From Ornithinibacter aureus (GTDB lineage Bacteria; Actinomycetota; Actinomycetes; Actinomycetales; Dermatophilaceae), in the NCBI RefSeq assembly GCF_009858245.1, contig NZ_VMSB01000001.1, positions 1,736,001-1,800,000 of the forward strand: a DNA stretch of 64,000 nt. Direction: 5' to 3'. The translations under genes and the position numbers were made by a program. The notes under the pieces were generated by a model. The model made no database searches and was not told the DNA's origin. It saw nothing but the letters and a program-made list of their open reading frames with translations. Position 1 is the stretch's first letter; each line of letters begins with the position of its first letter. Of the stretch, positions 16,444 to 53,967 are shown one piece after another.

Positions 16444-18194
16444 GAGCGTGGGTCAGTAACACGCCAGTCGGGTTCCGCTGCTGAGGTGGGCGCTTGGGGG
16501 AGAATCTGGTGTGCCTGATGATGACGCGCGGGTGTTGTTCGAGTTGTGCGATGAGTCGACCGGTCGGGGCTCGGCGCCGGCGGAGCCGGCGGCGGGAGTG
16601 CCGGTGAGCAAGACGTTCCGGGCGTTCGCGCCGGAGCAGGACTTGTTGTTGCCGCCGTCGCTGGATGACTGGCTGCCGTCCGAGCACTTGGCTCGGTTTA
16701 TCGCCGAGCTGGTTGATGAGCACCTGGACTTGTCCCGGATCCGCGCCTCGTACACCAAGGCCAAGGGCGCCCCACCGTACGACCCACGGTTGATGGTGCG
16801 GATCCTGCTGTACGGGTACACCACCGGGGTGCGCTCCTCACGCCAGTTGGAGGCGTCGTGTCAGGACGTGGTCGCGTTCCGGTGGCTCGCGGCCGGGGCG
16901 GGTCCGGACTTCCGGTCGATCGCGCGGTTTCGCAAGCGGCACCTGTCCGCATTGGGCCACCTGTTCGTGCAGGCGTTGGCGTTGTGCCAGGCCGCGGGGA
17001 TGGTCAAGCTGGGCCGGGTCGCGTTGGACGGGACGAAGCTGCGCGCGAACGCCTCGCGGCGCAAGGCCATGAGCTACGCGCGGATGAGCGAGAAGGAGAA
17101 GATCCTCGCCGACGAGGTGTCCGAGTTGCTCGCGCAGGCCGAGGCGATCGACCAGAGCGAGGATGCCCGGTTCGGCAAGGACTCACGCGGGGACGAACTG
17201 CCGCAGGAGCTGCGGCGCCGCGAGTCGCGGCTGGCCAAGATCCGGGAAGCGAAGCAGGCACTCGAGGACGAGGCTCGGGAGCGCGCCGAGCAGGAGGCCC
17301 GAAAGAGGGCCGCCACGCGGGGTGAGGGCGAGGACACTACCGCGCAGCGGGTCGCCGACGCGGTCGCGGCGGCGGTGCCGAAACCGAAGGCGCAGCGCAA
17401 CTTCACCGACCCGCAGTCGCGGATCATGAAGACCTCCGACGGGTCATTCCACCAGTGCTTCAACGCCCAGGCGGTCGTCGATGACGGCCATCAGGTGATC
17501 GTCGCGGCCGAGGTGAGCGACTGCGCCGCGGACGTTGCCAACCTGATGCCGATGACCGAACAAACCACCGTGAACACCGGACATGCGCCGGGTGAGGTGC
17601 TCGCCGACGCCGGGTACTGCTCGGCCGACAACCTGGAGCAGGCCGCCACGGTCAGCGCAGCGAGCGGGACCGAGTTCTTCATCGCCACCGGCCGCTCCAA
17701 GCACGACGCGCCGCTCCCGGCCGCGCCGCGAGGCCGGATCCGCAAGGACGCGACACCACGTGAACGGATGGCCCGCAAACTCACCACCAAGAAGGGCCGG
17801 ACCGCCTACGCGCGACGCAAGGTCATCGTGGAACCGGTGTTCGGGCAGATGGCCACCCTGCAGAACGCGAAACACCTCCTGCTCCGCGGGATCGACGGCG
17901 CCCGCGGCGAGTGGCTCCTGCTCGCGGCCTGCCACAACCTACGCAAGCTGCACGGTCACATCGGCGTCGCTGGCCTGAACGGGCTCCGGACCGCCTGACC
18001 CGGCCCCCCGAGGTCACGAATCCGCCTGTCAGCGGACCTGACTCGCTCCTCAAAGGCCACTCAGGGGTTTCACCGGCGGGGATCACCCGCTCAGCTGCCC
18101 GAACCGGCCAAAACCGGCAGATCCCGGTCCGATTGCTCCACGGCACACCATGGTCCCCGTGACGGACCCGCTGGCGTGTTACTGACCCACGCTC
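16444..18194 (+). mobile_element. IS1182-family insertion sequence, copy 1
   Basis: The element is 1751 bases and is bounded by 24-base perfect inverted repeats beginning GAGCGTGGGTCAG. A 4-base palindromic target duplication CTAG flanks it (16440-16443 and 18195-18198). It is inserted just upstream of the start of the split 197-residue gene. Confidence 0.92.
16511..17998 (+). CDS. IS1182-family transposase, copy 1
   Basis: A 495-residue DDE transposase starting at GTG. It has the IS1182-typical N-terminus (DDWLPSEHLARFIAELVDE), first Asp in VALDGTKLRANASR, second in LADAGYCSADN and the Glu in VIVEPVFGQM. A coiled-coil-like acidic/basic stretch lies at about 195-270. The protein is identical to that of copy 2, and both are full length, so at least one is probably active. 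Confidence 0.93.
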   Translation: MPDDDARVLFELCDESTGRGSAPAEPAAGVPVSKTFRAFAPEQDLLLPPSLDDWLPSEHLARFIAELVDEHLDLSRIRASYTKAKGAPPYDPRLMVRILLYGYTTGVRSSRQLEASCQDVVAFRWLAAGAGPDFRSIARFRKRHLSALGHLFVQALALCQAAGMVKLGRVALDGTKLRANASRRKAMSYARMSEKEKILADEVSELLAQAEAIDQSEDARFGKDSRGDELPQELRRRESRLAKIREAKQALEDEARERAEQEARKRAATRGEGEDTTAQRVADAVAAAVPKPKAQRNFTDPQSRIMKTSDGSFHQCFNAQAVVDDGHQVIVAAEVSDCAADVANLMPMTEQTTVNTGHAPGEVLADAGYCSADNLEQAATVSAASGTEFFIATGRSKHDAPLPAAPRGRIRKDATPRERMARKLTTKKGRTAYARRKVIVEPVFGQMATLQNAKHLLLRGIDGARGEWLLLAACHNLRKLHGHIGVAGLNGLRTA

Positions 18195-18350: not shown

Positions 18351-20101
18351 GAGCGTGGGTCAGTAACACGCCAGTCGGGTTCCGCTGCTGAGGTGGGCGC
18401 TTGGGGGAGAATCTGGTGTGCCTGATGATGACGCGCGGGTGTTGTTCGAGTTGTGCGATGAGTCGACCGGTCGGGGCTCGGCGCCGGCGGAGCCGGCGGC
18501 GGGAGTGCCGGTGAGCAAGACGTTCCGGGCGTTCGCGCCGGAGCAGGACTTGTTGTTGCCGCCGTCGCTGGATGACTGGCTGCCGTCCGAGCACTTGGCT
18601 CGGTTTATCGCCGAGCTGGTTGATGAGCACCTGGACTTGTCCCGGATCCGCGCCTCGTACACCAAGGCCAAGGGCGCCCCACCGTACGACCCACGGTTGA
18701 TGGTGCGGATCCTGCTGTACGGGTACACCACCGGGGTGCGCTCCTCACGCCAGTTGGAGGCGTCGTGTCAGGACGTGGTCGCGTTCCGGTGGCTCGCGGC
18801 CGGGGCGGGTCCGGACTTCCGGTCGATCGCGCGGTTTCGCAAGCGGCACCTGTCCGCATTGGGCCACCTGTTCGTGCAGGCGTTGGCGTTGTGCCAGGCC
18901 GCGGGGATGGTCAAGCTGGGCCGGGTCGCGTTGGACGGGACGAAGCTGCGCGCGAACGCCTCGCGGCGCAAGGCCATGAGCTACGCGCGGATGAGCGAGA
19001 AGGAGAAGATCCTCGCCGACGAGGTGTCCGAGTTGCTCGCGCAGGCCGAGGCGATCGACCAGAGCGAGGATGCCCGGTTCGGCAAGGACTCACGCGGGGA
19101 CGAACTGCCGCAGGAGCTGCGGCGCCGCGAGTCGCGGCTGGCCAAGATCCGGGAAGCGAAGCAGGCACTCGAGGACGAGGCTCGGGAGCGCGCCGAGCAG
19201 GAGGCCCGAAAGAGGGCCGCCACGCGGGGTGAGGGCGAGGACACTACCGCGCAGCGGGTCGCCGACGCGGTCGCGGCGGCGGTGCCGAAACCGAAGGCGC
19301 AGCGCAACTTCACCGACCCGCAGTCGCGGATCATGAAGACCTCCGACGGGTCATTCCACCAGTGCTTCAACGCCCAGGCGGTCGTCGATGACGGCCATCA
19401 GGTGATCGTCGCGGCCGAGGTGAGCGACTGCGCCGCGGACGTTGCCAACCTGATGCCGATGACCGAACAAACCACCGTGAACACCGGACATGCGCCGGGT
19501 GAGGTGCTCGCCGACGCCGGGTACTGCTCGGCCGACAACCTGGAGCAGGCCGCCACGGTCAGCGCAGCGAGCGGGACCGAGTTCTTCATCGCCACCGGCC
19601 GCTCCAAGCACGACGCGCCGCTCCCGGCCGCGCCGCGAGGCCGGATCCGCAAGGACGCGACACCACGTGAACGGATGGCCCGCAAACTCACCACCAAGAA
19701 GGGCCGGACCGCCTACGCGCGACGCAAGGTCATCGTGGAACCGGTGTTCGGGCAGATGGCCACCCTGCAGAACGCGAAACACCTCCTGCTCCGCGGGATC
19801 GACGGCGCCCGCGGCGAGTGGCTCCTGCTCGCGGCCTGCCACAACCTACGCAAGCTGCACGGTCACATCGGCGTCGCTGGCCTGAACGGGCTCCGGACCG
19901 CCTGACCCGGCCCCCCGAGGTCACGAATCCGCCTGTCAGCGGACCTGACTCGCTCCTCAAAGGCCACTCAGGGGTTTCACCGGCGGGGATCACCCGCTCA
20001 GCTGCCCGAACCGGCCAAAACCGGCAGATCCCGGTCCGATTGCTCCACGGCACACCATGGTCCCCGTGACGGACCCGCTGGCGTGTTACTGACCCACGCT
20101 C
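18351..20101 (+). mobile_element. IS1182-family insertion sequence, copy 2
   Basis: The element is 1751 bases, same orientation as copy 1, with the same 24-base inverted repeats and its own CTAG duplications (18347-18350 and 20102-20105). Only 152 bases of host sequence lie between the two copies. All open frames read identically in both copies. Confidence 0.92.
18418..19905 (+). CDS. IS1182-family transposase, copy 2
   Basis: A 495-residue DDE transposase, residue for residue the same as copy 1, including the catalytic Asp, Asp and Glu motifs. The identity of the overlapping shadow frames implies that the DNA is also identical, so the duplication is recent. Two identical direct copies can recombine to delete the DNA between them, or together carry the intervening segment as a composite unit. 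Confidence 0.93.
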   Translation: MPDDDARVLFELCDESTGRGSAPAEPAAGVPVSKTFRAFAPEQDLLLPPSLDDWLPSEHLARFIAELVDEHLDLSRIRASYTKAKGAPPYDPRLMVRILLYGYTTGVRSSRQLEASCQDVVAFRWLAAGAGPDFRSIARFRKRHLSALGHLFVQALALCQAAGMVKLGRVALDGTKLRANASRRKAMSYARMSEKEKILADEVSELLAQAEAIDQSEDARFGKDSRGDELPQELRRRESRLAKIREAKQALEDEARERAEQEARKRAATRGEGEDTTAQRVADAVAAAVPKPKAQRNFTDPQSRIMKTSDGSFHQCFNAQAVVDDGHQVIVAAEVSDCAADVANLMPMTEQTTVNTGHAPGEVLADAGYCSADNLEQAATVSAASGTEFFIATGRSKHDAPLPAAPRGRIRKDATPRERMARKLTTKKGRTAYARRKVIVEPVFGQMATLQNAKHLLLRGIDGARGEWLLLAACHNLRKLHGHIGVAGLNGLRTA

Positions 20102-45004: not shown

Positions 45005-46000
45005 TTACGGGTTCGAAGCACCTGTTGGAGACAACGGTGCCGCAGGTGCTGCCAGACGGGCGCGGTGCTCCTCAGCCAGGTCCTGCATCTGGGCTTCGTC
45101 CCGGTTCTTGAACATGGCGTAGACCGGCCCCGGCACTCGCCCGAACTGGGAGCGCGTCCGGAAGATCCCGTCCTGCACTTGTCGCGCCAGAACCATCAGG
45201 CGGGTGAGCTCGGCCTGGTGGATGGCACCACTCTGGGCATGCGCCAGGACGTCGGTGACGAGGAGGACCAGTCGGGAGCGCTCGTCCATCACCTGCTGCT
45301 GCACCCTCCACCGCTCCCGACCAAGGTCGAAGGCCGCTGCTGCAGGAACGAACGCCACCATCAGTGTCTGCGCCACTTTGGCATCAGCCAGGACGGCGAC
45401 GAGCACTCCGAGCGATACCCAGCACAGGCCGGTGAGGATGAGGAAACGCCGGAAGCGCCGACGAAGGCGCACGTCCCAGTTCAGGTTCTGCTCCTGAGAG
45501 ATGAACACATCCAGGGGGTAGTGCACTCGGTCGGTGTTGTCGTACCACCCTTCCTGGATGCGCTGCTCGGCGCCCGAGGTCGGCTTCAGAGAACCGGCCA
45601 GTTGCAGCATCCGGTCGGGGGTGACGCGCTGGGATGACCCCAAAGTCTCGTTCCACGGCAGCGCGAAGAGCCGACAGTCGAAGACCTCCTGGATCGTTGC
45701 CGCCTCCTCGGTCGAGGCCTTCGCCAGAGCGCCCAGTACGAACGCGGACACCAGAAACCACGCGAACCCCGAAAGGGTCACCGGCCCTTGCCATTTCCCG
45801 GTGTATGCCGAGACCATGCCCACGATCGCAAGGACCACCGCGCCGGTCTCCTGAGCAGTGGCGAACCACTGCGTGCGCCGGTGCACAACGGCTGCCGCTC
45901 GCTGCAAGCTGACCTCATCTGTCTCGAGTTGGCGCAAGTGCAGGGGCGCCGGCGGAATGCCCGTCGGCTGGCTGAGATTGACCAGGTAGGGAGAGCTCAT
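45005..46000 (-). CDS. S-4TM family CBASS effector
   Basis: A 331-residue protein with four predicted membrane spans in two pairs (about 49-67 and 73-94; about 187-207 and 211-228) and a large middle domain, matching the S-4TM family of predicted pore-forming effectors next to cyclic-nucleotide synthases. On activation by the second messenger it should permeabilise the membrane and kill the infected cell. The ATG overlaps the CD-NTase stop as ATGA; the frame is open to 46036 but the overlap decides. It is the last gene of the operon. Confidence 0.82.
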   Translation of the reverse strand: MSSPYLVNLSQPTGIPPAPLHLRQLETDEVSLQRAAAVVHRRTQWFATAQETGAVVLAIVGMVSAYTGKWQGPVTLSGFAWFLVSAFVLGALAKASTEEAATIQEVFDCRLFALPWNETLGSSQRVTPDRMLQLAGSLKPTSGAEQRIQEGWYDNTDRVHYPLDVFISQEQNLNWDVRLRRRFRRFLILTGLCWVSLGVLVAVLADAKVAQTLMVAFVPAAAAFDLGRERWRVQQQVMDERSRLVLLVTDVLAHAQSGAIHQAELTRLMVLARQVQDGIFRTRSQFGRVPGPVYAMFKNRDEAQMQDLAEEHRARLAAPAAPLSPTGASNP

Positions 46001-46860
46001 GGGTTGGACATTCTGGTCCCGAACAGCTTTTGCCACTCCTTGACCGCGGCACGCTCGGACCCGGCGTCGGCCAGGTCGACGGCCCTCTCCGCGATGCGAC
46101 GAGCGTCGCCCAGCGCCTGCTGAGCCTCCGCCCGCTGCGCGGCGGTCATCGTGTTGACGTCCCCACCCAACCCCGCCGGGTCGTCGAACACCTCGTGGAC
46201 GCGGTCGGCGGCGTTTGCGAAGAAGAAGACGAGCTCGTCGGAGTGCAGCCCATAGGGGGAGCGCACGATGTCGTGAGCCATCACCTCGAGCAGGAATGAG
46301 GGTGTGACCGTGCCGCCGAGCTCGCGGTTCGCGGCCTTAACCATCTTCACGAAGGGCACGAAATTGCCGTCACACTCTTGGTTTTTCGAGGTGGTGAGCT
46401 TGTGGTGGTCCTTGGGGTTGGTCGCCAGCCAACGACTGCGGTCAGGGTCGGGGATGACCCAGCCGCCCTCGCTGCGCTCGAACGCGGGGACCACCTCGAT
46501 CGAGGTGACAACGGAGTCGGTGCCGAAGGGAATGACGACAGCCATCCCGTCGAGGACCGCGTCGGGCCACTTGTCGTTCACGACCGCCTTCAGCTCGTCC
46601 AGGACGACGTGGGGCTCCTTGTAGCGCAGCTGGCCCTGGGGCCCGTCGGGGTCAATCACAACGAAGACGTCGACATCGGACATCGGCTTGGTCTTGGTGT
46701 GGCGCCGGTAGGAACCGGTGAGGAAGTCCTCGATCAGGTCCCACTGGGTCCGCACATGGTCCCGGATGCGGTGGTGGCGCCGGATGGCGGTCGCCTGCTC
46801 GGTGGCAGTGATCTCCAGGTTACTGCTCAGATTCTTGAACGCCTCGGCGATCACACTCAT
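45997..46860 (-). CDS. CD-NTase (cyclic oligonucleotide synthase) of CBASS
   Basis: A 287-residue nucleotidyltransferase. The active-site pattern is complete: GS at 49-50, the Asp pair in SDVDVFVV (62 and 64), and the third acid in SIEVVP (Glu122). With the TRIP13-like and HORMA-like partners, it should make a cyclic oligonucleotide when phage protein is sensed. The long open frame to 47217 is rejected: the HORMA gene occupies that stretch, and AGGAG lies 12 bases before the ATG at 46860. The clade cannot be assigned from reading alone; systems with HORMA are usually clades C or D. Confidence 0.88.
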   Translation of the reverse strand: MSVIAEAFKNLSSNLEITATEQATAIRRHHRIRDHVRTQWDLIEDFLTGSYRRHTKTKPMSDVDVFVVIDPDGPQGQLRYKEPHVVLDELKAVVNDKWPDAVLDGMAVVIPFGTDSVVTSIEVVPAFERSEGGWVIPDPDRSRWLATNPKDHHKLTTSKNQECDGNFVPFVKMVKAANRELGGTVTPSFLLEVMAHDIVRSPYGLHSDELVFFFANAADRVHEVFDDPAGLGGDVNTMTAAQRAEAQQALGDARRIAERAVDLADAGSERAAVKEWQKLFGTRMSNP

Positions 46861-46874
46861 CGGTCTCGTTCTCC

Positions 46875-47384
46875 TCAGTCGTAGATGGTCATGGAGGCGG
46901 ATGCGCCCGGCGCGGATGCGAGCGTGCCGGCACTGGTGGAGCGCAGCCCCTTGCGGTCCGCAGAAGTGCCGGGGCTCCAACCGGGCATGATGCTTCGTGG
47001 GCCGTGGAACTGGACGAACAAGCGTGTCTTTGTACCGGCTGGTAGGCGGGGCAGCTTCGTCAGGAAGCGCCGGATCCTGTCCTTGGAGGCGGCGAATACC
47101 ACGTCGTCGACGCCGCCGGCGTGGTAAGTGACCGGAAACTCGACGACGGTGAGCAGCCTCCCTGCGGGAGAGGTGAACTCGACGCTGACCGCCTTCAGCG
47201 ACCGTTCGCTGATCCACTGGGTCACCGCCGCCTCGTTGTTCTCCCAGTCATCGGTGACCACGTTCGGCGCCAGGCCGAGCTGGGCGATCGCTTCGGCGAG
47301 CGTGCCCAAGATGTTGCTCGTTAGGTGCGTCGCGACCTGGGTCCAGGTGGCGACGTAGCTGTTCGTCGACGTCCAGGTACTCAC
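46875..47384 (-). CDS. cap7: Bacterial HORMA-domain protein of type III CBASS
   Basis: A 169-residue protein that begins with the pattern of bacterial HORMA family 1: a Tyr/Thr-rich strand, HLTSNILGTLAEAIAQLGL, then DDWENNEAAVTQWISERSLKAVSVEF, and a C-terminal Ser/Ala-rich safety-belt region. It would bind a peptide of phage origin and activate the CD-NTase; TRIP13 remodels it. The ATG overlaps the previous gene as ATGA; 14 bases separate it from the CD-NTase start. Confidence 0.75.
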   Translation of the reverse strand: MSTWTSTNSYVATWTQVATHLTSNILGTLAEAIAQLGLAPNVVTDDWENNEAAVTQWISERSLKAVSVEFTSPAGRLLTVVEFPVTYHAGGVDDVVFAASKDRIRRFLTKLPRLPAGTKTRLFVQFHGPRSIMPGWSPGTSADRKGLRSTSAGTLASAPGASASMTIYD

Positions 47385-47857
47385 CGCAGCCCCCTGAGGG
47401 CATCGGCGTTAACGAGTGGGGCGGATGCCGACAAGGTCGCCTTCGGTGCGTGGTCGGGCGCGGGATCGGTGGTTAGGTGCTGGTTGCTCGCAGCGACGGT
47501 CTCGATGGTCGTCCCCAGTTGGTCGGGAGTGGGCAGGTGGAGCGTGAAACTGTTCGCGGCGCTGACGCCCGAGACCGCTTGGAGGTTCTCCTCACCGTCG
47601 ATGGCGTCTTCGTCGTAGCGACACAGGATCTCGCACACGGCCTGGCCGGCCACGAGCACGACGGGCACGGTCTTGAGGTGTCGGGAGGACACGAGGAGCA
47701 GCAGGGCGGGGCGCGCGGCGGACAGCGCGAAGTCCACCGCCTGGGTGTCGACGCGTTTGGCCGTCGCCAAGGTGGTGGCTATCAGGTCGGTGATCGCCGT
47801 CACCGTCTGCGAGGTGCTGCGTGCTGGGGAGGCGTTCAGGGTCCGACGGCGCTTCAT
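47381..47857 (-). CDS. Second small CBASS protein, possibly HORMA-like
   Basis: A 158-residue protein between the TRIP13-like and HORMA genes, overlapping both as ATGA. It starts with helices (TVTAITDLIATTLATAKRVDTQ), then a beta region VPVVLVAGQAVCEILCR, and ends in a Pro/Ala-rich tail. Some type III CBASS systems encode two HORMA proteins, so this may be a divergent second one; the evidence is mostly position and size. Confidence 0.6.
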   Translation of the reverse strand: MKRRRTLNASPARSTSQTVTAITDLIATTLATAKRVDTQAVDFALSAARPALLLLVSSRHLKTVPVVLVAGQAVCEILCRYDEDAIDGEENLQAVSGVSAANSFTLHLPTPDQLGTTIETVAASNQHLTTDPAPDHAPKATLSASAPLVNADALRGLR

Positions 47858-48738
47858 GATGCGGCCCCCGCGGCGTCCACGACGTCCGCGGCAGCCAGCA
47901 GCTGCCTCATGGTCAACTTCGCCGGGTCCACGGTTGTGGCCGTCGCCGAGGCCAGGGAGCCGATGACAAACTTGCGCGCCATGCGCCCGTCGAGGCCGTC
48001 TAGCCGTGCGGCGACCTCGGGCAAGGCCGGGTCTTCCGCCAGGGTACGCAGTGCGGGGTAGAGAGCGCCGAGTTCGTGCAAGGTAGACCGAATGATGGCG
48101 GCCAGCGCCTGCTGGTTGGGGGCGGGGACGAGTATGGCGGCGTCCGCCCGGGACATGAAGGCCTCGTCGAGGCCGGCCATGAAGTTGCTGGTGGCGACGA
48201 AGAGCAGGTGTGGACACTTGCGCGTGTTGGTGTCGAGCGCGGTCAGGACGGCGCCGGTGGCGCGGTGGACGTCGGCGGGGTTCGCACCCAGTGATGCCTC
48301 GGACCGGGCGACGACCATCGACTCGACCTCATCGAGGACGACCACAGTCGGCTGGCCGTCGTCGGCCAGGCCTGGGATGTAGTCGCTGAGCAGCTCGTGG
48401 ACCTGCTGCTGGGACTTCCCGTGCTCGCCGGACATCAGCCCATGCGGGTTGATCTCGATCCGCCGCACCCGCCGTCCCGTGACGTACGGGGCAAGCTGGA
48501 AGGGCAGTCCCCGGGCGAGCGAAGTCTTGCCCGTGCCCGGTGGTCCGTGGAGCACGATCTGGCCGTGCAGGCCGGTAGACGCAAACGGCATCTGCTGGCG
48601 CAGCGTGAGTGCGAGCAGCGCGTGGTTGCGGATCTGGTCCTTTATGGCGTCATCCATAACGATGCCGGACCAAGGGCTGTCATCAGCGGATGCGGTGGTG
48701 ATCGTCTCGTTGGCGATCACGCACTCTTCGACCTGCAT
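47854..48738 (-). CDS. cap6: TRIP13/Pch2-like AAA+ ATPase of type III CBASS
   Basis: A 294-residue AAA+ protein: Walker A GPPGTGKT at 65-72, Walker B VVVLDEVES at 132-140, sensor-like FVATSNFMAGLDEAFMSRAD. It should disassemble HORMA-peptide complexes and so keep the synthase off in uninfected cells. It is the first gene of the five-gene operon. Start at ATG 48738; a strong terminator separates it from the upstream operon, so it must have its own promoter. Confidence 0.85.
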   Translation of the reverse strand: MQVEECVIANETITTASADDSPWSGIVMDDAIKDQIRNHALLALTLRQQMPFASTGLHGQIVLHGPPGTGKTSLARGLPFQLAPYVTGRRVRRIEINPHGLMSGEHGKSQQQVHELLSDYIPGLADDGQPTVVVLDEVESMVVARSEASLGANPADVHRATGAVLTALDTNTRKCPHLLFVATSNFMAGLDEAFMSRADAAILVPAPNQQALAAIIRSTLHELGALYPALRTLAEDPALPEVAARLDGLDGRMARKFVIGSLASATATTVDPAKLTMRQLLAAADVVDAAGAAS

Positions 48739-48831
48739 CGTGGGCTTGCCTCCGTCGGTTGTCCTGGGAGGCCTGCCGGTTGCACGGGCCTCGACCAGTC
48801 CAAGGGCAGGTTCGCCGACCGGATGTCAAAA

Positions 48832-48878
48832 GGTCCGGCCCGGTAAATGCCACCGTTGGCATTCACCGGGCCGGAACC
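48832..48878. terminator. Terminator between the two defence operons
   Basis: TCCGGCCCGGT-AATGCCA pairs with TGGCATT-ACCGGGCCGGA (one mismatch) around a four-base loop, a 20-pair hairpin located 34 bases after the ATPase stop. It indicates that the upstream operon ends here. Confidence 0.8.
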
Positions 48879-48912
48879 CGTGGTCGTGGTCGCTCGGAGG
48901 ATCGAGGGTCGG

Positions 48913-50742
48913 TCAGGGCTTGAGGTGCCCCAGAAGGGACTCCAGCAACGCCGCCGAGTCCTCGGCCGACTCGTCGAAGAACCCCTCGGGCCAGTTCGAC
49001 ATGGACCCGTCGAGCTCGGGCTGGACCGCGATGTAGCGAGTCGCTCCCTTATGCCGTTCGGCAAAGACCAGCCCCACCCGGCGCTGCACCCGACCGGTGC
49101 GGTCCTCGGCAGTGCGCCGACGAAGTCGCGTCACCAAGTAGTCGCTGTGGGTCTCCACGATGAGCTGGCGGCCGCTGCCCGCCACAGCCAGGAGGAAGTC
49201 GGCCAGTCGCTGCTGAACCCCGGGGTTGAGGTGGAGCTCGGGTTGCTCGATGAGCAGCAGGGACCCCGGCGGTGCCTGGAGGCACATCACTAGAACCGGC
49301 AGCAGTTGGCTGACCCCCGTACCGACGCTGGTCAGGTCCAGCTCTGCGTCGACGTCCGGCTGTCTAACGGACAGCTGCAGCCCGAGACGCCCACGGTCCT
49401 CGGTGGTAAACGCGTCAGCGATTCCCAGGTGAGCAGCCCACGCGTTAACCGCCTCCGACAGGCTGTGCGGTCTGATGGACCTGCCCGGGATAGGGGGGAA
49501 GGAGTGCACCGGCTGGCGACCGTTCGTGTCGAGCACGGAGGCGGTGTACTCGCCTTTGTCGCCGATGAAGCCGGGGTGGACGGCGGGCGAGGACCGGTAG
49601 ACCACGGCAGGATCCATTCGCAGCGGTCCCAGATGTTGCACGCGGGTGCTGAGGAAGTCGCGGGCGTCGGCGATGGCGTCGCGCAGGATCTCCGGCGGGG
49701 TCTCGATCCGGGGGGCGCTTCGGTCGCCAACGCGTAACGCCGTGGTCACCATGTCGTACACATGGACTAGCTGGGACGAGGTCCAGTCCCCCTGTGCCAG
49801 CGTCGGGTTCGACCGTTCGAGCTCGCGGATGTGTGCCCGGATCAGCCGTTCAGCATGGATGCTTTCAAGCATGGTGTCTGGCGCCTCGTCGATGATCGAC
49901 TGCAATGCCCCAGTAATCCTCTGTGCGGCTGCTTGAGGGTCTGTTCGCTCGCGGTTGGTGGCCGTGCGGAGTTCCCTTCCTCGAGGGTCGTGGGGGCCGG
50001 TCCCGCGTTTGGGCAGGTTGGCCCGAACCGCCTCGGAGCGCACGTCGAACCAGATCTGAAAGAGCATGTCCGCCAAGGGGAGGGTGAACAGGTAGGACAT
50101 GGGAAAGCCGCCGAGGATGTTGGCGTCGATGAAGGACGCGACCTGCTCGTCGTACTCGCGGACGGCCCCTTCGTATTGCACTTGGTGTCCGAACGAGTGC
50201 GTGGGCCGTTTCCGTTTGGCCTGCGTCGCCGACAGGCTTGCGTGCTCCATACCCTCGACGAGCGCCCTTACCTTGACTCCGACGATGTTGCTTGCTGCGC
50301 TCTGACCTTTCGGTGAGCCCTTCAAGGTGACGTCCCACTCCAGGCGGGTGTCATCGGCCAGCTCGAGCCGCCGCCGTGCCCGGCGCCTGGCGGATGCGGC
50401 AAAAGGCAGGTAGGAGTCAGTTGAGGCGTAGAACTCGGGCGAGCCGAGGTGGAAGCATCCGCCGATCTCGATGGGCTCGTCCGGGGCGGCGGCGCTGAAG
50501 CGCGTCTCTTCGAAGGTCCCCAACCGGATCTGCTCGCCGTTGAGCGGAAACGCGTCGCCGCTGGAGTTCGCCGCCTGCGCAGCGACGCGAATCGACTGCA
50601 GCAGTGTGCTCTTCCCTGCTGAGTTCGCCCCAACCACCACAGTCAGCGGCGCAAGGTGGACCTCCGCGTTGGCTACTGACTTGAAGTTGCGCAGGCGCCA
50701 GCTTCGCAGTGACAGCCCCTCGTGCCATTCGGACTCAGACAT
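48913..50742 (-). CDS. DUF3696-type ABC/RecF-like ATPase, probable defence protein
   Basis: A 609-residue SMC/ABC-like ATPase. Walker A GANSAGKST near residue 38, the signature-like SVGTGVSQLLPVLV near 490, Walker B LLLIEQPELHLNP near 515, and ETHSDYLVTRLRRR. This order, with the C-terminal block about 60 residues long, fits DUF3696-type ATPases, which occur in several phage-defence systems (as I recall, including Menshen NsnC). It overlaps the gene before it by eight bases (ATGTCTGA) and is the last of four. Confidence 0.8.
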   Translation of the reverse strand: MSESEWHEGLSLRSWRLRNFKSVANAEVHLAPLTVVVGANSAGKSTLLQSIRVAAQAANSSGDAFPLNGEQIRLGTFEETRFSAAAPDEPIEIGGCFHLGSPEFYASTDSYLPFAASARRRARRRLELADDTRLEWDVTLKGSPKGQSAASNIVGVKVRALVEGMEHASLSATQAKRKRPTHSFGHQVQYEGAVREYDEQVASFIDANILGGFPMSYLFTLPLADMLFQIWFDVRSEAVRANLPKRGTGPHDPRGRELRTATNRERTDPQAAAQRITGALQSIIDEAPDTMLESIHAERLIRAHIRELERSNPTLAQGDWTSSQLVHVYDMVTTALRVGDRSAPRIETPPEILRDAIADARDFLSTRVQHLGPLRMDPAVVYRSSPAVHPGFIGDKGEYTASVLDTNGRQPVHSFPPIPGRSIRPHSLSEAVNAWAAHLGIADAFTTEDRGRLGLQLSVRQPDVDAELDLTSVGTGVSQLLPVLVMCLQAPPGSLLLIEQPELHLNPGVQQRLADFLLAVAGSGRQLIVETHSDYLVTRLRRRTAEDRTGRVQRRVGLVFAERHKGATRYIAVQPELDGSMSNWPEGFFDESAEDSAALLESLLGHLKP

Positions 50743-51700
50743 GGGCTGCCTTCCCTCGGTCAGCTTCGGAGACGACCACTTGGTGCCGGCGGCCACCAAT
50801 CACCACTGACTGGTACCAGACTTCTGGTCCATGGGGACTGGATCCCCACAAGGTCGATACCGACTCCACCGTGATGCAGCGGACATGTGCCGGGAGCTCG
50901 GCGGCAAGGTCCCACAGGACCGCCACCAACGTGTCGTCTCGAACGTCCCGAAGTGCCCCTACTTGCTCGGCCGCCCCATCGCGCAGCGCATGAGGGCGTA
51001 GGAGCAACTTGTGTCGGCGGTGGACCTGGTCGCGCACTGCGGCCCACAGGGCAAAGGAGACGTCTCGGTGTGGAACCGGCAGGGCGGGTAGGACCTGCGC
51101 CGGCAACCGCACCTGGTCGCAGGCCAGCAGCCGAGTGGCGACCCGGGCCAGCTGGGCACGCGCAGCGAGCGGCACCTGGGCGGAGTCGAACGCCATGGGG
51201 TCGATGACCCGGGCCACGTCCTCGGTGCCGTCAACGAGCTGGTAACGGCATTCGGAGGTAAGGGCGACAAGTGCGTCGAGCTCGTTCTCTTTCCAACGCC
51301 ATCGTCCGTCCAGCTCATCGCGGAGCGCAACACCAGCGACCGTGGCCTCATCGAGGTCGGTGGCGGCATGCCCCAGCACTGGGCCGACCTGAACGAGCCA
51401 GGCGAGGCCGGTGATGTCGGGTAGCGCGATGACGTCGTAGCCCAGCCCGGTGTCGGCTCCGCGAAGTAGCCGATCCGTCGACGTGCCCTGCTCAAGCTCG
51501 GGGGAGAGCAAGACCACGGTTGCAGACGCGGACCAGTTGCTTACAGCGGTGATGAGGACCAGACGAGGCGGCGTTCCTGGGTCCATCGGCTCGAGCCGTC
51601 GAATTTGGCCGGCAGCCACAACACTGTCGTCGACAGGTGTCGGGGCTGTTCGGTGCTGTGAAAGAACCTCACGAAGCCAAGCAGGCCGCTGGTCGCTCAC
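50735..51700 (-). CDS. Unknown protein of the ATPase operon
   Basis: A 321-residue soluble protein rich in Leu, Ala and Val. LVLITAVSNWSASATVVLLSPELE and similar strands alternate with helices, and no catalytic motif is seen. It sits between the sigma-like and ATPase genes, overlapping the first by four and the second by eight bases, so all are made together. It may be a sensor or adaptor, which is inference. Confidence 0.65.
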   Translation of the reverse strand: MSDQRPAWLREVLSQHRTAPTPVDDSVVAAGQIRRLEPMDPGTPPRLVLITAVSNWSASATVVLLSPELEQGTSTDRLLRGADTGLGYDVIALPDITGLAWLVQVGPVLGHAATDLDEATVAGVALRDELDGRWRWKENELDALVALTSECRYQLVDGTEDVARVIDPMAFDSAQVPLAARAQLARVATRLLACDQVRLPAQVLPALPVPHRDVSFALWAAVRDQVHRRHKLLLRPHALRDGAAEQVGALRDVRDDTLVAVLWDLAAELPAHVRCITVESVSTLWGSSPHGPEVWYQSVVIGGRRHQVVVSEADRGKAAHV

Positions 51701-52620
51701 GGAGCGCTCCCGTCGGAGATCTCGGGGAGGTGCTTGTTGAGCAAGAAGGCGCCGAGCTGCGTCACGACCTCATTCTGCAGCCGGTCGTCCAGAGGGCGAA
51801 GCGCTGCATTGAGGGTCGCGGACGCCTCCTTGAACCGTTTCGCCGCGGTCGGTCGCGAGATCGAGAAGTGCCGCGCGACCACCGTGTCGGAGTGGTCGGC
51901 CATCTTCAGCGCGAGCAGCTGCATCGTCGCCTCCGGCAGAGTTCTAAGGTACGTCATCACATCGTTCACTATCGTCTCCTCAGCAGGGGTAAAGGAGCGA
52001 TCGGGTTCGTCGTGGCCCCCGTCATCTAGTACAAGGATGGTTGGGACGTAATCTGTCAACGCACGCTCAAGAACTCGAGACATGTCGTTCCGCGAGCATG
52101 ATGTCCCGACCAGGTCGACGACGATCCCCACGACACGCTCGAGAGTGGAGGCGTCGAACACTATGGGTGCGCGGTCGCTATTGATGATCCGCACTCGGGG
52201 CAGGTTCATCACCGCTGCAGCGGCCGCGAACAGGACAGAGTCGGCGACGGTAGGTCCGCGCGGAGTGGTCGGGAACGGGCGGATCTTCTCGATGCGGTCG
52301 AGGAGGTTGTCCACGATGGTGCGCCGGCGGGTCAAGCTGATCTGCCGTCTCACGGATAGATGCAGGAGTGCTCGGGCGTGGGAGAGGTTGGCGACAGTGT
52401 CGACGATGTACTTCAGCTGCAGGGCCTCCAGCAGCTGGGTGGCCGTGACCTCCTGAACTAGGTTCTCCCGGGCCGCGTCGTCCCACACGCCCGTCTCGCT
52501 GTAGGTGTCGGGGTTGTACCGGCGGACCGTGGACGCGACGGCTCGCTCGATCTCGGCGAGCCAAAGTGGTCCGATGATCCACTCCTCATACTCGTCGCGC
52601 AGGTCCTCCCACGTCGTCAT
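51697..52620 (-). CDS. Sigma-factor-like protein of the ATPase operon
   Basis: A 307-residue protein. Residues about 40-110 (WDDAARENLVQEVTATQLLEAL, then HARALLHLSVRR and TVVDNLLDR-like text) read like a sigma-70 region 2, and residues about 245-290 (ADHSDTVVARHFSISRPTAAKR) like region 4 with an HTH. The order matches sigma factors, but with a long insertion between. It may therefore recruit RNA polymerase, or use the fold to recognise phage DNA. It overlaps its neighbours by four bases. Confidence 0.65.
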   Translation of the reverse strand: MTTWEDLRDEYEEWIIGPLWLAEIERAVASTVRRYNPDTYSETGVWDDAARENLVQEVTATQLLEALQLKYIVDTVANLSHARALLHLSVRRQISLTRRRTIVDNLLDRIEKIRPFPTTPRGPTVADSVLFAAAAAVMNLPRVRIINSDRAPIVFDASTLERVVGIVVDLVGTSCSRNDMSRVLERALTDYVPTILVLDDGGHDEPDRSFTPAEETIVNDVMTYLRTLPEATMQLLALKMADHSDTVVARHFSISRPTAAKRFKEASATLNAALRPLDDRLQNEVVTQLGAFLLNKHLPEISDGSAP

Positions 52621-53006
52621 CGCGACCCCGGGCGCAAGGATTCGGCGCCCATCACGGCGGCCGTGATGCCTGCGTCTGGCTCGTCACACATTGCGGTGGT
52701 GTGGTCCAGATCCCGCTTCTTCGCTGGGACGGGGACGGCGATGACGATACGACCGTCGACGTCGATGCGGCACCTTGGGTACTCGACTTGGTGACCGTGC
52801 GGTCGCTGTGAAAGTCCCGTCGAGCTGGAGGCTGAGCGGGCGAAGACGCACGCGATCGGACTGTTGTCGAGCCACTCGCGCAGGATGACCCGACGCAGGC
52901 CGTGCTTGTGCTGCGCGAAAGGCACGGCCGACTCGTCGACGGCGAACCAGGCGACACCCTCTTGGGGGGCGATGTTCAGTCGCCGCCGTATCTCGCTCAC
53001 ATCCAC
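52617..53006 (-). CDS. Small first protein of the ATPase operon
   Basis: A 129-residue protein with VAWFAVDESAVPFAQHKHGL near residue 18 and CRIDVDGRIVIAVPVPAKKRD near 78. No known family is recognised. The ATG overlap with the sigma-like gene (ATGA, at 52617-52620) makes it the first gene of the operon. Its size fits a sensor or inhibitor, as does its being outermost, but this is speculative. Confidence 0.55.
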   Translation of the reverse strand: MDVSEIRRRLNIAPQEGVAWFAVDESAVPFAQHKHGLRRVILREWLDNSPIACVFARSASSSTGLSQRPHGHQVEYPRCRIDVDGRIVIAVPVPAKKRDLDHTTAMCDEPDAGITAAVMGAESLRPGSR

Positions 53007-53470
53007 AGCCCCACCCCCTCGCGTCGCAAGAGCGCCGCAACTCAGCCAGGCGGCGATTGCGTCACTGTAGCCGGGCCAGGCTCGTGTCCTTGCGAGTATT
53101 CCGGCATCAGACCTTCATGCGAACTTGAGCCAGCCCGCCGACGGTCCTTCCAGCGTCGGCGCAAAGCCTTGGTTCGAGGCAAATCCGATCGGTCCAAGAG
53201 CGTCACTCGACGAGAAAGGTGCGCGGGGTAAGTGCCTCGGGAAGTGGACCACGTTAGCCGCGATTCGAGCGTCCGTTTGGGGTTCATGCAAGTCTTCGGC
53301 TGTGTAGCCAAGATCCGGCCAGTGGACCGATGGGGCGTCAAAGTGCGCCGGTAGGCCCACGGCCCGTGGGTGCCGAGCGCCGATGCTCGTACAGCGTGGT
53401 TGCCCTCCAACCTCAAATGCCGGAAGAGCCCGATCGGTAGCCGGTGAAGGCCGGGCCAACTGAATCCTTG

Positions 53471-53490
53471 TGGCACGTATGTGGCACGCG
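53471..53490. repeat. Arm-type direct repeat copy 1 near tRNA-Tyr
   Basis: GTGGCACGTA and TGTGGCACGC repeat the same 9-base core. The same doubled motif appears at 53891 and, with changes, at 44619. It resembles integrase arm-binding repeats. Confidence 0.4.
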
Positions 53491-53890
53491 GCGCATGCTT
53501 GAGCATCGATGAATGTGAATACTTGCTGTTCATGAGGTGTAAGCGGGCATTGTGACACGATACCTCCTAATGAGGGAGTCACCGGCTGGGCTGCCACCGG
53601 GCCGCCGAGCGGGGTCCGTCCGCTGCAGTCACCTCGACTCGGCAGGTGGTCGCCTGCCTCCCAGGCCCGCATCGAGCTCTCGCCCCTCGTCGACCGACCG
53701 TCGACTGGTCCGTGCAACGCCCTTACACGACAGGCGGGGGCGCCAACCCGTCGTCGGGTCCTGAGGACTGGACGGTGACGACCCACCGGATCCATGCGGG
53801 ACCCGCCCCATCTCAGCGCGCGGACACGTCGCGGCAGTAACCGCCGAGCTGGGTTCACCGCCTCAGGGCCTGCGATCGCGGCCAACGATC

Positions 53891-53910
53891 TGGCACGTAT
53901 CTGGCACGCG
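53891..53910. repeat. Arm-type direct repeat copy 2 near tRNA-Tyr
   Basis: TGGCACGTAT and CTGGCACGCG, doubled core as in copy 1, only 60 bases from the tRNA 3' end. Confidence 0.4.
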
Positions 53911-53919
53911 AGGCAAATG

Positions 53920-53961
53920 AAGGACCCCTTGGCACCGCGTTTCCGCAGGTCAAGGGGCCTT
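53920..53961 (-). terminator. tRNA-Tyr terminator
   Basis: On the minus strand, AAAGGCCCCTTGA and CCAAGGGGTCCTT flank a loop with CTGCGGAAACGCGG. It lies directly after the CCA end of the tRNA. Confidence 0.75.
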
Positions 53962-53967
53962 TCGCAC

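Follow-up and report, generated by a model that had tools for sequence, protein, structure and literature searches.

Menshen, whose NsnB component is the nearest profile to the ATPase considered here, has been described as a DUF262 protein together with an OLD nuclease (PMC10952713), and a sigma factor, CASP-sigma, has been described under the control of an inhibitor within the type III-E CRISPR locus (PMC10028731). Defence modules built on this ABC ATPase exchange their partner proteins, and it is probably from these that the target can be read; a sigma factor in an immune locus free of CRISPR would be unusual. Here we describe four adjoining genes, p4 to p1, in a 64,000-nucleotide stretch of Ornithinibacter aureus DNA (the window), in which a putative ATPase of the Menshen kind has neither a DUF262 protein nor an OLD-TOPRIM protein beside it, and is accompanied by a predicted descendant of a sigma factor.

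Results

The four genes all lie on the minus strand and, by the ORF calls, run in the order p4 (52617..53006, 129 aa), p3 (51697..52620, 307 aa), p2 (50735..51700, 321 aa), and p1 (48913..50742, 609 aa). The co-directional reading frames overlap by 4, 4, and 8 bp, respectively, in agreement with the overlaps of 4-8 bases in the first-pass annotation of this DNA. The longest reading of p1 extends to a far-upstream TTG start (up to 50799); the ATG at 50742, behind GAGGGAAGG, yields the 609-aa protein and its 8-bp overlap with p2. Third-position G+C (GC3) is 0.72-0.82 across p1-p4 and exceeds GC2 by 0.24-0.37 in every gene, for which reason all four appear to be coding. Downstream of p1 is a terminator-like hairpin (48829..48879, minus strand), with a perfect 18-bp stem (48835-48874) that folds at -43 kcal/mol and, after it, CCTTTTGAC with a TTTT run. 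The strong terminator that had been proposed here is thus present as a stem, although its T run is short, and for that reason a strict terminator scan did not list it.

The same four genes, in the same order, were found on contig SIRV01000009.1 of a metagenome-assembled genome (MAG) of a distant actinobacterium, Actinobacteria bacterium QQ.bins.69, where they overlap by 4, 8, and 4 bp and where the BREX genes for BrxA and BrxC lie immediately downstream of p1. The block is therefore conserved as a unit, one of the checks that the first-pass annotation had proposed, and because it recurs whole in a second genome it is more than a chance arrangement. Between the two loci, the p1 proteins are 57% identical over 253 columns of their C-terminal part, the p3 proteins 36% over 324 aa (E 7e-32), and the p2 proteins 28% over the first 188 columns (E 2e-13), while the p4 proteins are 37% identical over 71 aa, with 25 bits as against 20.4 for the best of 200 shuffles; each of the four pairs scored above the best of 200 shuffles. 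Taken across these two loci, p1-p4 are one translationally coupled, conserved unit. In the MAG, a 245-aa ORF near the contig end (32-769 of SIRV01000009.1; locus L039) stands 22 bp before p4, and that operon may start further upstream.

The block is rare, with two copies in the genomes searched. A search with p2 across 396 genomes of the phylum returned one MAG besides the source genome. No p3 was encountered outside its own genome in samples of 395 genomes from the class and 386 from the order, and a sample of 391 from the phylum gave the MAG alone (these draws partly overlap; about 1,200 actinobacterial genome searches altogether). Scans of plasmids, phages, and viral contigs, p3 included, gave no further copy of the block; in viral contigs, matches to the ATPase profile were limited to three distant ATPases. 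Likewise, a scan of genome contigs with two N-terminal patterns recovered the MAG copy only, though diverged copies may escape such patterns.

The window copy, too, adjoins defence genes. A CBASS system had been noted beside the operon, and Pfam and PADLOC identified the next genes downstream of p1 as a complete type III CBASS (45005..48738, minus strand), which lies outside the module and comprises TRIP13 (47854-48738), two HORMA proteins (47381-47866 and 46875-47384), a CD-NTase (45997-46887), and an S_4TM effector (45005-46036), all on the minus strand. G+C is 0.65-0.67 over about 44-54 kb of the window, compared with 0.69-0.74 in the 2-kb bins just before and 0.70-0.74 in those after, and a tRNA-Tyr gene lies beside the start of this low-G+C island. 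Both features are as expected of an acquired island, and the module was probably acquired horizontally. The window contains no second, perfect copy of the tRNA-Tyr 3' end such as could mark an attachment site. The stretch of about 1 kb between p4 and the tRNA-Tyr gene (53007-53967) holds no convincing gene and may represent a decayed terminus of an integrated element. Elsewhere in the window, two ORFs of equal length (16511-17998 and 18418-19905) are identical over their first 70 residues and probably represent one insertion-sequence transposase present twice.

The p1 product is predicted to be an OLD-like ABC ATPase, DUF3696/NsnB in type, from a family in which defence proteins are numerous. 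Its Pfam matches are to AAA_21 (2e-26), AAA_15, and, at the C-terminus, DUF3696 (PF12476; 23.5 bits, cut-off 22). Among the PADLOC models, NsnB of Menshen scored best (3.4e-68, 229 bits, profile positions 107-344 of 345; 2.2e-71 for the MAG protein), followed by HEC-03B (2.2e-45) and PDC-M55A (3.5e-36); p1 also matches AriA and GajA, as well as the OLD protein of T. scotoductus (6p74). The DUF3696 and NsnB matches thus agree with its earlier assignment to a DUF3696 type of ATPase known from defence. Walker A (GANSAGKST), signature (VSQLLPV), Walker B (LLLIEQPELH), and H-loop (ETHSDY) motifs are intact in both the window and the MAG copy, and no TOPRIM nuclease match was obtained in p1-p4 or in their MAG homologues.

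A tree of 35 DUF3696-type ATPases places the window and MAG p1 proteins as sisters (support 100/98), with the ATPases nearest to both in a clade of six rows (99/97). These nearest relatives come from plasmids, from a P2-like phage, and from a host relative, and the gene after each encodes a different partner, either a DUF2325-like protein or an unrelated one of about 335 aa, suggesting that the ATPase is a modular core and that p2-p4 are one partner set. Two-gene units in which a close DUF3696 ATPase precedes a DUF2325-like protein occur on Rhodococcus plasmid pROB02 (locus L005, 3214-5792) and in the host relative G081 (locus L038, 6085-8549). Another partner of a related DUF3696 ATPase, ORF333 of P2-EC5 in a P2 prophage (locus L010, 1912-2913), shows a weak similarity of the PD-(D/E)XK kind (E 0.08).

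The window p3 alone gave no significant family match. Its MAG homologue, however, matches HTH_23 above the cut-off, Sigma70_r4 just under it (8.9e-5), and PHROG sigma factors at 1e-7; in addition, residues 27-287 match the NCBI sigma70-ECF model (E 9.6e-7, below the curated cut-off), a match that spans both sigma domains. We compared the p3 profile (hhalign) with nine ECF-type sigma factors encoded by the genome from which the window comes, using 100 column shuffles as a control. The C-terminal part scored 38.8 (shuffle maximum 18.2), and in the AlphaFold model (pLDDT 59, of which only the sigma-4 part was used) sigma-4 structures came first in structural alignment (Z 8.3), although Foldseek alone returned nothing at E up to 0.001. 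The sigma-4-like helix-turn-helix domain (51772..52008, minus strand; about residues 205-283) can therefore be assigned firmly by profile comparison, structural alignment, and homologue match. The N-terminal part scored 18.5, with 1 of 100 shuffles higher and a DxxQ motif aligned with region 2, and in the homologue this part is covered by the ECF model; no PF04542 match was found in the own-genome protein. The evidence is no more than suggestive of a probable sigma-2-like segment (52291..52542, minus strand; about residues 27-110). Accordingly, of the sigma-region-2/4-like protein claimed in the first-pass annotation, the region 4 part is well founded and the region 2 part less so. Taken together, the comparisons identify p3 as a predicted sigma-factor descendant. 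Regions 2 and 4 are separated by about 90 residues, more than is usual in an ECF sigma factor; given this long linker and the weaker sigma-2 half, contact of p3 with RNA polymerase may have been lost.

The 321- and 129-residue proteins had been listed as having no recognised role, and neither p2 nor p4 matched a named family among Pfam, PADLOC, NCBI, and PHROG models in the window or the MAG locus, where matches were below threshold only; nor does either protein contain a recognisable nuclease or toxin active site. Conserved His and Cys residues of p4 (H70, H72, C79, and C107) are common to its MAG homologue. As read from the sequence, their spacing is unlike that of the ZAS anti-sigma motif, and this assignment was rejected, as was a MazF-like barrel in p4, for which the hhalign score (10.4) was within shuffle noise. 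At the N-terminus of p2, by contrast with p4, hhalign against MazF/PemK reached 20.7 over 93 of 114 columns, with 1 of 400 shuffles higher. This weak fold prediction suggests a possible, degenerate MazF/PemK-like barrel (51356..51613, minus strand; about residues 30-115), for which the evidence is weak to moderate. The AlphaFold model of p2, built from two sequences (pLDDT 37), was set aside. The catalytic residues of MazF are Arg and Thr. In three p2 sequences, the aligned positions read P/A/A and S/V-G/S, and as the pair is not conserved an active MazF-type RNase is doubtful.

A standalone homologue of the p2 N-terminal domain (149 aa) is encoded on the M. chimaera plasmid NZ_LT703506.1 (locus L004, 7938-8387), with a PemK/MazF toxin gene some 1.5 kb away. 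The ATPase, p3, and p4 are absent there, and with only the p2 N-terminal homologue present the plasmid was not counted as a third copy of the block. A p4-like stretch on it is interrupted by a stop codon, and the resemblance was put down to chance.

Discussion

Judged by their sequences, the four genes are probably a rare, undescribed defence module. Direct support comes from the gene content, order, and coupling that recur in two distant loci, from the defence genes beside both, from the intact ATPase motifs, and from the sigma ancestry of p3. The reading that we prefer, at a probability of roughly 40%, is a coupled defence-type module in which p1-p4 would form an ATP-gated complex acting against phage or other mobile DNA. 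Most likely, p1 would be the sensor or switch of this complex and p3 its docking subunit, the sigma-4 domain binding promoter DNA or RNA polymerase and the sigma-2-like half probably joining in; p3 would, in other words, still contact promoters or the polymerase. The effector and regulatory roles would fall to p2 and p4. Our confidence in the defence reading is moderate, because there are only two instances and the evidence comes from sequence. Possible, if on the doubtful side, is a more specific form, a stand-alone, non-CRISPR immune system in which the sigma-derived subunit places the OLD-type ATPase on promoters or RNA polymerase, such that transcription is monitored or attacked.

The main rival to the docking complex, in our view possible but somewhat unlikely, takes p3 as a working alternative sigma factor that is held inactive by p4, p2, or both; upon infection p1 would bring about its release, and the freed p3 would then activate the operon along with further genes of the host, much as Csx30 and CASP-sigma do in type III-E CRISPR. 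That the ECF-sigma model matched across both domains of the p3 homologue, and that p4 immediately precedes p3 and shares its conservation, are consistent with such a response, and an inhibitor-controlled sigma factor in a defence locus has a precedent (PMC10028731). However, the sigma-2 region is degenerate to the point of lacking a PF04542 match in the window protein, p4 lacks the ZAS spacing of an anti-sigma factor, and the block encodes no protease or other release device. Less likely again is a module in which p2 is the toxic effector, with its MazF/PemK-like barrel and C-terminal domain, p1 its ATP-dependent activator, and p3 and p4 mainly a DNA-binding regulator or antitoxin of the operon. 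The helix-turn-helix domain at the end of p3 would suit this arrangement, as would the MazF/PemK similarity of p2 and the varied partners beside the ATPase relatives, one with a weak nuclease-like match; against it, the barrel is a weak prediction whose MazF Arg and Thr positions are not conserved.

The remaining two alternatives concern whether the block belongs to defence, and whether to a known system. A regulatory or stress operon that stands in the island by chance would fit the fact that there are two loci only and that evidence from neighbourhood is circumstantial, but both known copies adjoin defence genes (type III CBASS and BREX) and the p1 family has many defence members, and we regard this as very unlikely. 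Most improbable of all is a Menshen system with strongly diverged NsnA and NsnC: while NsnB is the closest PADLOC model to p1, no PADLOC model is matched by window p2-p4 even with E allowed up to 1, the only such match among the MAG partners is of the p3 helix-turn-helix domain to CARF models, and the DUF262 protein and OLD nuclease of Menshen are both missing here. With the docking complex retained as the preferred reading, the earlier proposal of a new or divergent defence system holds in part: the block is conserved, matches no described system as a set, and has a defence-type ATPase and a sigma-like protein, all on the strength of two loci, whereas defence against phage and the detection of phage promoters or RNA polymerase changes stand as putative roles.

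When the four genes were compared as a set with described systems by a defence finder (PADLOC), as the first-pass annotation had recommended, no system was matched. The block resembles Menshen in the kind of its ATPase and differs from it in its partners; with E allowed up to 1, neither NsnA nor NsnC was matched by p2-p4 in the window or in the MAG. The same is true of HEC-03 and PDC-M55, whose ATPase components (HEC-03B and PDC-M55A) match p1 and whose partners gave no match at E up to 1 in either locus. Membership in these three systems was therefore rejected, as the ATPase fits and no partner gene does. The nearest ATPases belong to units of a different build, with two genes, the ATPase first, and an unrelated partner that is DUF2325-like in Rhodococcus pROB02 and G081 and about 335 aa long on an Acetobacter plasmid and in a Klebsiella P2-like phage. 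Like OLD, Gabija, and PARIS, p1 falls in the same ABC ATPase superfamily, but it lacks a TOPRIM domain and has no helicase or TOPRIM partner. The block shares with CASP-sigma/Csx30 of type III-E CRISPR (PMC10028731) a sigma-type protein inside an immune locus, yet contains neither a CRISPR effector nor a protease, and p3 is far more diverged from ECF sigma factors. Such an operon is described nowhere in the literature that we searched, which covers the relevant papers incompletely. Within that literature, the block is, on present sequence comparisons, an undescribed set of partners on a known defence ATPase, and one that, if the role of the sigma-derived partner holds true, would link this ATPase family to transcription.
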